Part shown: piece after piece, positions 2,898 to 39,653 of the stretch
Layout of the letters: each line of letters opens with the position of its first letter
Position numbering within the stretch: position 1 is the stretch's first letter
From: an uncultured Prevotella sp.
GTDB taxonomy: Bacteria; Bacteroidota; Bacteroidia; Bacteroidales; Bacteroidaceae
NCBI RefSeq assembly: GCF_937863835.1
Contig: NZ_CALMHT010000021.1
Location: 1 to 64,000, forward strand
Length of the DNA: 64,000 nucleotides
Reading direction: 5' to 3'
Notes under the pieces: generated by a model
What the model was told of the DNA's origin: nothing
Seen by the model: the letters and a program-made list of their open reading frames with translations, nothing else
Databases searched by the model: none
Translations under genes and position numbers: made by a program

Positions 2898-3697
2898 AAA
2901 TCGTCTGGCTCTATTGTTTGATTTATTATAACATTCCATCGGTCGTCTATTGGACATTCATCTGTAGAATGGTCTGAATCCAATGGAATTTTCTTCATTC
3001 GTTTATTGTTTGATTTGAGAAGGTTGAACAGTATATTTGCCTGCTCTGTCTCTTCCAATATAACATCTGCAATATATCCTAACCGTTGTAATGTGGGAAT
3101 ATTGGTTACAGAAAGTAAGAATTCGAACTGCTTGCTGAAATCTGTATATTCCAAAAGTTCTTCTAAAACAGTGGCAGCCATAGAAAGCCCACCTATCTGT
3201 TGATTATATTGAACTAAATCGACAGCCGTTAGTTCCGGGGTGGAGAATTTTACTCTACCTGTCTCAGAATTCCTTTGCACGAGTAAGTTCTCAGGAATCT
3301 CACGACGATAGTTCCACATTAACTGATTGTTATACTGGCTGGAAGTAGTAGCCTTGGGTAATAGGGTCGTTACTGAAAACTTTTGCGGTCGTTGATGTGC
3401 TGCACCATGTAATTCGGCTGCACTTAGCAGACTTATATAATAAGGTTTACCTAAATATGTCATCAGTTGGTCGATATAATATAAAGGTGGAACAACCCCA
3501 CGAGCGGAATATTGCACAGGTATTACCGTATAAAAGCATTTATAAACAGGTACAATTATCGATTGCTTTGACAAACGATATAATTCAGAGGTAATAACCT
3601 TAACAGATGTATTGGGAAATTTTTCTTTTACGTCTGCTATGGAAAATGTAGGTTTTCCTGCTATTTCACGTTGCTTTATCCAATTTCTTATAGTCAT
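2894..3697 (-). CDS. AbiEi-type antitoxin / transcriptional regulator (type IV TA)
   Basis: 267 aa with N-terminal winged-helix-like region; immediately upstream of and overlapping the AbiEii gene. Confidence 0.82.
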   Translation of the reverse strand: MTIRNWIKQREIAGKPTFSIADVKEKFPNTSVKVITSELYRLSKQSIIVPVYKCFYTVIPVQYSARGVVPPLYYIDQLMTYLGKPYYISLLSAAELHGAAHQRPQKFSVTTLLPKATTSSQYNNQLMWNYRREIPENLLVQRNSETGRVKFSTPELTAVDLVQYNQQIGGLSMAATVLEELLEYTDFSKQFEFLLSVTNIPTLQRLGYIADVILEETEQANILFNLLKSNNKRMKKIPLDSDHSTDECPIDDRWNVIINQTIEPDDL

Positions 3698-37723: not shown

Positions 37724-37796
37724 CGGGATTTGGCGCAGTTGGTAGCGCACACGTCTGGGGGGCGCGAGGTCGCAAGTTCGAGTCTTGTAATCCCGA
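37724..37796 (+). tRNA. tRNA-Pro(GGG)
   Basis: CGGGATTTGGCGCAGTTGGTAGCGCACACGTCTGGGGGGCGCGAGGTCGCAAGTTCGAGTCTTGTAATCCCGA. Confidence 0.93.
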
Positions 37797-37810
37797 CATT
37801 AATAACAAAA

Positions 37811-37852
37811 GGGAGTTGTAATCAGTGGATTTCAACTCCCTCTCTCTTTTTT
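37811..37852 (+). terminator. tRNA-Pro terminator
   Basis: GGGAGTTG...CAACTCCC followed by TCTCTCTTTTTT. Confidence 0.8.
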
Positions 37853-37931
37853 ATTATCAAGGTATTGAACTGCCGGACAGTAAAAACACTAAACCACAAT
37901 AAGATAATTGTCAATATTCAGTCAGAGATTT

Positions 37932-38036
37932 TACAGAGTGCCTGTGTAAACACATTACAGCGGTGCTGTAAACACTCTACAGCGGTGCTGTAACAATGCT
38001 ACAGAAGTGCAGTAACCTCTCTACAACGCTTCCGTA
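37932..38036. repeat. Array of five imperfect palindromes, ~22-bp period
   Basis: TACAGAGTGCCTGTGTA (37932), TACAGCGGTGCTGTA (37956), TACAGCGGTGCTGTA (37978), TACAGAAGTGCAGTA (38000), TACAACGCTTCCGTA (38022); spacing 24, 22, 22, 22. Confidence 0.85.
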
Positions 38037-38054
38037 ATTTTTTTAAAAGATAAG

Positions 38055-39653
38055 CTAATTGTACGTATCGTGTTTATTGTAGACTAAGATAGCATAGGGT
38101 TCGTCGTCATATCTAATGTATCCCTTTGGAATACCATTATCAAGTGTTTCTTGGGGCAAAATAACGATTCCCTGCCGTGGAAATTCATTCTCTTTTGCAT
38201 CATCATCAATGATTAGAGCGGGATGTTTGATATAAACATCAATATCATCTATTCTGCTCATTTTGTAGACATAGATATACGACAAGTCGTATTTTCTTGA
38301 TAGTTGCTTGGCTGTCTGACACACATGACGATATCCAATGTATGGATTGATTGTGGATATATTCAGTCCGATACAGAAAACCGCTGCAAACAGCCCCGCA
38401 AATAATGAATATATCGAATATGTCTTTTTACCTATAAATAAAACCGTCATAGAAGCGATACCTGCAGCAGAAAAAACAATAGCTGCAGGGATCAATGCCG
38501 GTGTAGGAAGTGTGATAAGGTCGTACTTGTCCATTATGATCAGACAGGGAAGTATTAAGGCAAAAAGCAGAGATGGAATGAATAAAGCCAGTGACACGAG
38601 TGCTGATTCTTTTATTTTGTAGAAGAGAAGTGTTGTAAAATAGATAAAAAAAGGTATAGCAGGAAGCATGTAAATTTCTATTTTGGAACTGATTAGTGAT
38701 AACAGTATAAACGTACTGACGGATACAGTCAAAAAGAACTTTTCTTCTGTCGTTTGAATGAGATTCCTATATGTTCCATGAATCAAACATACGAGTCCGA
38801 GTATTGACCATGGCGCAATGGTGTACCAATAACTGATGATATAATAATAAAAGGGGTGATCGTGACGAAATGAATGGATAGCCCTTCCGAATGTCTGATG
38901 AAGTAATTGGTTCTTAATATATGCGATACCTCCTTCTTGATAAACACACGTGAACCATACGGCGCAAAGAAAAAACAGGATGCACCATGTCTTCATGCCC
39001 CAGTAGTGATGGAATGCTCTGATTCTTTTTGTTAACAGCAGATAGCCCGTTGTACCTGCCAACGGGATTAATATCCCCATGGGGCCTTTGGTGAATACAG
39101 CCATAAAGATACATAGAGGGAATAAATATGTATATGCAACTTTTGTGCTCCTGTTGACCTCCATCTGATAGAATAAATAAAATGCGATGACAATAAACAT
39201 ACACATCAGCATGTCCATTCTGAGAATAATACCTGCACCGATGAAAAGATCACTGCTCAGTAGTAGCAATATAGCCGTAATTCTGGTTTGTCGGGAAGCG
39301 GATCTTCTGATCCATAAGTCAAAAATATATGCGACAATGAATGTAGGTACAAGAGAGAAAAAGGAAAGAAACCACATCAGATGGCATCCGAATATCTTGC
39401 GACCTAACATGACAATCCATAAGTATAAAGGAGGCTTGTCTGCATAGATTTCCCCATGATTGGTAAAAGCGAAGTAGAGTCCGCGATGTAAAGCCTCGTC
39501 TGCAATACTGAGATAACGAAGTTCGTTGGAAGGTGTGAAATCGCGTGCAATGATTAGAGGCAGTAATGCGACAACGATTGCTATAAATATGAGTAGGATA
39601 ATTCGTTCTGTGATGATATCACATTGCTTATAATGTGCAAACTTTGTTCTCAT
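38055..39653 (-). CDS. ArnT/PMT-family glycosyltransferase
   Basis: Multi-TM; SNELRYLSIADEALHRGLYFAFTNHGEIYADKPPLYLWIVMLGRKIFG. Confidence 0.85.
   Translation of the reverse strand: MRTKFAHYKQCDIITERIILLIFIAIVVALLPLIIARDFTPSNELRYLSIADEALHRGLYFAFTNHGEIYADKPPLYLWIVMLGRKIFGCHLMWFLSFFSLVPTFIVAYIFDLWIRRSASRQTRITAILLLLSSDLFIGAGIILRMDMLMCMFIVIAFYLFYQMEVNRSTKVAYTYLFPLCIFMAVFTKGPMGILIPLAGTTGYLLLTKRIRAFHHYWGMKTWCILFFLCAVWFTCVYQEGGIAYIKNQLLHQTFGRAIHSFRHDHPFYYYIISYWYTIAPWSILGLVCLIHGTYRNLIQTTEEKFFLTVSVSTFILLSLISSKIEIYMLPAIPFFIYFTTLLFYKIKESALVSLALFIPSLLFALILPCLIIMDKYDLITLPTPALIPAAIVFSAAGIASMTVLFIGKKTYSIYSLFAGLFAAVFCIGLNISTINPYIGYRHVCQTAKQLSRKYDLSYIYVYKMSRIDDIDVYIKHPALIIDDDAKENEFPRQGIVILPQETLDNGIPKGYIRYDDEPYAILVYNKHDTYN

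Follow-up and report, generated by a model that had tools for sequence, protein, structure and literature searches.

Intergenic arrays of palindromes with a 22-bp period in Prevotella and other Bacteroidales: candidate protein-binding sites carried in part by mobile elements

Results and Discussion

The array and its surroundings

The window (the whole 64-kb stretch of DNA that was analysed) contains a tRNA-Pro (GGG) gene at positions 37724..37797 of the forward strand, followed on the same strand by a terminator-like hairpin of the tRNA, AGGGAGTTGTAATC/GATTTCAACTCCCT with a T run, at 37810..37850. Downstream of this hairpin, and separate from it, lies an array of five dyads at 37932..38036. 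The array is directly preceded by TTGTCAATATTCAGTCAGAGATT (37906..37931, forward strand), a remnant of the end of a shared "leader" that precedes other arrays of the same genome. On its other side, a convergent gene for a 532-aa PMT_2-type glycosyltransferase (38055..39653, reverse strand) ends 18 bp from the array.

The first dyad, TACAGAGTGCCTGTGTA (37932..37948), is a terminal unit with a wider loop and is the counterpart of the TTTTACGGAGCGCCTCCGTAAAC terminal dyad seen in other copies. Dyads 2 (37956..37970) and 3 (37978..37992) are the identical 15-mer TACAGCGGTGCTGTA. Dyads 4 (TACAGAAGTGCAGTA, 38000..38014) and 5 (TACAACGCTTCCGTA, 38022..38036) are degenerate, the latter being the terminal unit on the tail side, and a T run follows it to about position 38044. 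The dyad centres fall at 37940, 37963, 37985, 38007 and 38029 and are thus 23, 22, 22 and 22 bp apart, which gives a 22-bp period with a first step of 23 bp. The original prediction, made from the letters of the window, had described five palindromes here at a phase of about 22 bp with degenerate right-hand units, and the array is present as described.

When the window was searched for TACAGNNNTGCTGTA with up to 2 mismatches, we observed 16 matches against 4.5 expected, a number reached by 0 of 100 shuffles. TRF reports a single 22-bp tandem array in the 64-kb window, at 37945-38025. An Rfam search returned the tRNA as its sole match and none for the array. We rejected a CRISPR array, since the period is 22 bp and the spacers, 5-7 bp in length, are drawn from a small set, whereas CRISPR arrays have 24-48 bp repeats and unique spacers. 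An intrinsic terminator was likewise rejected: the array holds one weak match, on the reverse strand, without a real T run, and the terminator of the tRNA stands apart upstream. Both exclusions had been predicted.

Dispersed copies in the same genome

A 161-bp region including the array matches 13 further places in the genome from which the window comes (G000), with E-values from 2e-20 to 8e-4. These places correspond to about a dozen arrays, each with 2-6 units, and nearly all of them are intergenic. A two-dyad pattern gave 73 loose matches in the genome, compared with 11 for the reversed pattern. The scan for further copies that had been proposed as a check therefore found them, and the suggestion of a mobile intergenic palindrome family is upheld by these dispersed copies with their common leaders and tails, as well as by a MITE with IS982-type ends in Hoylesella loescheii that is discussed below.

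The flanks of the arrays are modular, with two leader types and two tail types that occur in differing combinations; the loci L040 and L041 share 86% identity over 548 bp. Ten copies have a leader and two known neighbours; in eight of them the leader lies 3' of a same-direction gene or tRNA. Three arrays follow tRNAs (tRNA-Pro, -Gln and -Arg). One leader type is also found without an array, in MITE-like elements that bear a TTTAGGCCTAAA hairpin instead, indicating that the array behaves as a separate module.

Several other features of this genome were seen beside the arrays. MITE-like elements with ends ACRTCAYAACRTCGC are located at L287:1830-2240 and L288:1750-2260 (contigs C155 and C122); each has a central imperfect hairpin of about 90 bp built on AAATTTAGGCCTAAATTT, and an outer end identical to the leader beside some 22-bp arrays. 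A second repeat, made of GGTGGAGG-type direct units (GGTGGAGGATRGGTGGAGGTTTGGTGGAGG), comes after the tail of some arrays (L040:3178-3302, L041:2787-2911, and L048:2189-2313 and 3007-3049), and L048 also carries a 40-nt piece twice as perfect inverted copies. One contig ends within an array (L049:2930-3038); short-read assemblies are therefore probably interrupted by the arrays, and the true number of units may be higher than counted.

A conserved period with variable arms

A blastn search with an array against 59 relatives gave no match, and neither did searches of phage and plasmid collections. The strict core pattern likewise had no match across the genome contig collection, because each species has its own arms. 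A second genome of the same genus, G068 (which we take to be uncultured Prevotella RUG413), carries arrays whose arms differ from those of G000 (YTCCAG/CTGTAR). At least 13 are present, and each of the 13 has four internal units between terminal dyads TTTTACGGAGGC..CCGTAAAC, which resemble those of G000. When 18 array copies from the two species were aligned, T-N-C ... G-N-A at 22-bp steps was invariant, and little else was.

This skeleton, T-N-C-N9-G-N-A every 22 bp (18 fixed bases), has an exact match in 143 of 398 same-genus genomes, with up to 335 matches in one of them. The reversed pattern (ANG-N9-CNT) matches about 60 genus genomes, counted by eye, and is itself a phased dyad rather than a clean null. 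Many Bacteroidales records carry the skeleton, among them H. loescheii, Segatella paludivivens, Parabacteroides and Bacteroides, with arms that vary by species (TACAG, TCCAG, TACCA, TACAA, TTCCA, TTCAA and GTCCGA). Outside the order but within the phylum, about 2 of 390 genomes match, both through plain non-dyad tandem repeats. Many matches outside Bacteroidales (Paenibacillus, Streptomyces, Helicobacter) were judged, from their units alone, to be ordinary tandem repeats. The period is conserved in relatives and the sequence is not; conservation of phase was the outcome on which the original prediction had staked itself. Phased 22-bp dyad arrays (e.g. TTCCCYGTTTRGGGAA) were also seen in IMG/VR viral contigs, which may be phage or mis-assigned host DNA (L361:11180-11304, L366:1611-1757, L367:10386-10510 and L368:420-524).

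The period was measured with and without the motif. In a motif scan of 400 kb of G312, which we take to be H. loescheii DSM 19665, the inner distance and the gap sum to 22 bp, with almost no other combination. Motif-free dyad scans gave 22 bp and the multiples 33 and 44; in G312 the signal was at 22 bp with few at 33, and all 22-bp matches of a 15-bp-dyad scan fell within motif arrays. A TRF peak at 22 bp was observed in G026, G312, G223, G117 and G016, the last of these although it is without any motif match, and was absent from the E. coli and Markov-sequence controls. After similar units were collapsed, no other period between 17 and 39 had as many families as 22 bp in any of the five genomes (15, 5, 8, 4 and 7 families). 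Dyad symmetry is present in many of these families and weak or absent in several, which makes the period a broader feature than the motif. The 22-bp tandem repeats of Hallella multisaccharivorax (TTACACCRTAAAGGCAATGCGA; L142:518-608 and L178:2960-3050), which have little dyad symmetry, likewise suggest a period that extends beyond the palindrome. G016 also contains 44-bp tandem arrays of up to 8.9 units around CCCCTCCCAAGGAGGGG, exactly 2 x 22 bp (L417:14750-15140, L419:6131-6257 and L421:11607-11999). Arrays with zero indels made up 62% of the total versus 53% among other tandem repeats (P=0.22); indels are therefore not significantly rarer, and we dropped indel suppression as evidence of selection on the phase.

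Gene context was counted in 400 kb of G026, with genes taken from simple ORF calls. The 48 intergenic arrays comprise 21 in convergent, 26 in codirectional and 1 in divergent gaps, against a background of 34, 73 and 29 among 136 gaps. In H. loescheii, the corresponding figures for 35 arrays are 15, 16 and 4, against 37, 93 and 32 for all gaps. Arrays avoid divergent (promoter) gaps. The enrichment in convergent gaps is modest in these two genomes and absent in G016.

Conservation within a unit

The H. loescheii consensus is TTCCANNTNANNTGGAA plus a 5-bp spacer. Across 106 distinct units, the arms and the T.A core are near 2 bits and the loops near 0. In flank-oriented H. loescheii arrays the conservation profile is mirror-symmetric (r=0.80, P=0.03), a result that we regard as supporting rather than decisive given that units were picked by their arms, which favours symmetry at arm positions. 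A near-perfect symmetry (r=0.99) obtained earlier was in part produced by mixing the two orientations and was discarded in favour of the oriented value.

We observed no covariation between the arms of a dyad in G000, G068 or two H. loescheii families, and in 68% of G068 dyads one arm position differs between the two arms, more often than in shuffles. Selection on single hairpins would be expected to leave such covariation; the conserved feature is therefore not the paired hairpin. As in an operator array on dsDNA, the half-sites are dyad-symmetric and lack pairwise covariation. Judged from the letters, the conservation pattern is that of a putative symmetric dsDNA recognition site whose half-sites would be read independently.

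Interpretation and alternatives

The arrays occur in dispersed copies with an exact period, the family of the window array has a T-N-C/G-N-A skeleton, and in some genomes arrays hitchhike inside MITEs. The explanation that we favour, with a probability of roughly 45%, is that they are arrays of putative dsDNA protein sites, set in a two-turn phase and carried by mobile elements, at gene 3' ends. Within a unit, two half-sites in opposite orientation are spaced by about 11 bp. A half-site thus comes with each helical turn and a whole dyad with every second turn, nearly on one face of the helix. The arrays would then serve as dsDNA sites at which dimeric proteins line up and bind cooperatively. 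MITE-like transposition or local recombination may have spread the arrays, which may be kept where they are harmless or where they act at gene 3' ends, possibly as a transcription block, an insulator or a topological anchor between converging genes. The different arm families, often several per genome, could be bound by distinct proteins that share a similar geometry. A cooperative protein-binding array was among the options originally proposed, and it is the one that fits best with the exact two-turn period and the non-covarying half-sites. The 22-bp spacing common to many unrelated repeats of related bacteria, most of which lie next to gene ends, suggests an unrecognised DNA-binding platform. 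The several 22-bp families with weak or no dyad symmetry are not explained by a pure operator model.

A broader proposal, which we put forward more tentatively and consider rather unlikely as it stands, is that Prevotella and related Bacteroidales harbour an intergenic class defined by geometry and not by sequence. Under this proposal, exact 22-bp arrays, usually dyad-symmetric and with many unrelated arms per genome, would be docking platforms at gene 3' ends for a protein family or for one protein that reads geometry.

The main rival to these protein-site readings is a neutral one, to which we give a clearly smaller chance than to the favoured explanation. It holds that some process of replication, recombination or transposition tends to make 22-bp tandem duplications in intergenic DNA, that palindromes are favoured seeds, and that the arrays are functionless, remaining at gene 3' ends because insertions are tolerated there. 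The 22-bp peak spans unrelated sequences, some of them non-dyad, and extends to a genome without the motif; moreover, indels are not suppressed, copies are carried by MITEs, and tolerance would itself leave few arrays in divergent gaps. However, a duplication bias sits poorly with the very uneven conservation within a unit, with two species that have the same skeleton in different letters, and with the four full internal units retained in 13 of 13 G068 arrays.

It is improbable that the array is no more than the inside of a transposase-mobilised repeat, REP/BIME-like or MITE-only, with no role beyond mobility. Evidence for such an origin comes from H. loescheii, in which about ten arrays of the alpha family lie mid-way in an element of about 588 bp with the 18-bp TIR TACGCGAGTTCGGGATAA. 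This TIR occurs about 150 times in the genome and also bounds a gene for a 305-aa IS982-family transposase. The leader of G000 that is found in other MITE-like elements without an array points the same way. In contrast, we found no match to the H. loescheii IS982 transposase in G000 or G068, and none to a Y1 (RAYT-type) transposase, PF01797, in G000, which is 99.7% complete; the G000 array thus depends on neither. The H. loescheii beta, G068 and G117 arrays have no long common ends, and the same array architecture occurs with at least three unrelated flank types. We therefore rejected a RAYT link for G000, and an IS982 link is limited to one H. loescheii array family, the array in the window having other flanks. 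An IS982-family insertion sequence of about 1,046 bp, with ends common to the high-copy array-bearing MITE, was located at L283:681-1727 of H. loescheii.

Least probable is the structured RNA 3' end for the convergent gene that had originally been offered, in which transcribed chains of small hairpins would stabilise or terminate transcripts from both sides: the location at 3' ends and between converging genes agrees with it, as does folding that is better than in shuffles on either strand (z -3.4 and -3.8), but good folding is to be expected of any palindrome array, the best structure pairs adjacent units and not single dyads, and the differing, non-covarying arms, the tRNA's own upstream terminator, the lack of a real T run at the array's one terminator-like match and the Rfam result all speak against it. 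Overall, the mobile family of the original prediction has held up and its structured RNA is disfavoured, and a phase common to many unrelated sequences across the genus was unforeseen.

Intergenic repeats of Bacteroidales have hardly been described, and one genome can hold dozens of arrays of unrelated sequence with a common two-turn period. If the arrays bind protein, they would represent a system for organising the chromosome or insulating transcription in gut and oral bacteria that are abundant; if mutation gives rise to them, the 22-bp duplication bias would itself amount to a mutational signature that is new.

Comparison with known systems

Iteron and centromere-like arrays, such as the 22-bp iterons of R6K and the parC site bound by ParR, consist of helix-phased sites that load protein cooperatively; each is a single locus linked to a protein of replication or partition. 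The present arrays differ in that dozens of copies are dispersed on the chromosome, and no replication or partition gene was found beside them. With IS982-family MITEs the likeness is confined to one array family in one species: the H. loescheii element of about 588 bp shares its ends with an IS982 transposase gene and can be classed as an IS982-derived MITE, whereas the G000 array cannot.

REP/BIME sequences and RAYT-linked REPINs are Y1-linked hairpins of 20-40 bp with a GTAG or CGTC tag, present as singles or pairs (PMC3733652, PMC3116915). Like REP/BIME sequences, the arrays are built of short, multi-copy intergenic palindromes, often 3' of genes or between converging genes. They are set apart by the exact 22-bp tandem phasing, by the absence of a GTAG/CGTC tag at the dyads in the window, and by the absence of a Y1 match in G000.

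Among the open-access papers that we searched, none describes a 22-bp phase rule in Bacteroidales. The nearest known system is the BrickBuilt MITE of Porphyromonas gingivalis, a MITE/minisatellite of dispersed intergenic tandem repeats with about 19 copies and a 23-nt unit (PMC4596501). BrickBuilt has been reported from P. gingivalis and P. gulae only and has IS5-like ends, GAGACCTTTGCA; repeats of 22 and 41 nt that had been described before in strain W83 are cited in the same paper (PMC4596501). The period of the present arrays is 22 bp and not 23, and no dyad phase rule was described for BrickBuilt, a distinction that rests on the published description and not on the letters of the repeats. 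Furthermore, the leader in G000 starts with AAAACGTCACAACGTCGC, and the copies read had no GAGACCTTTGCA-type ends. What the two have in common is that both belong to Bacteroidales and combine dispersed intergenic copies, units of about two helical turns, and leader and tail segments.
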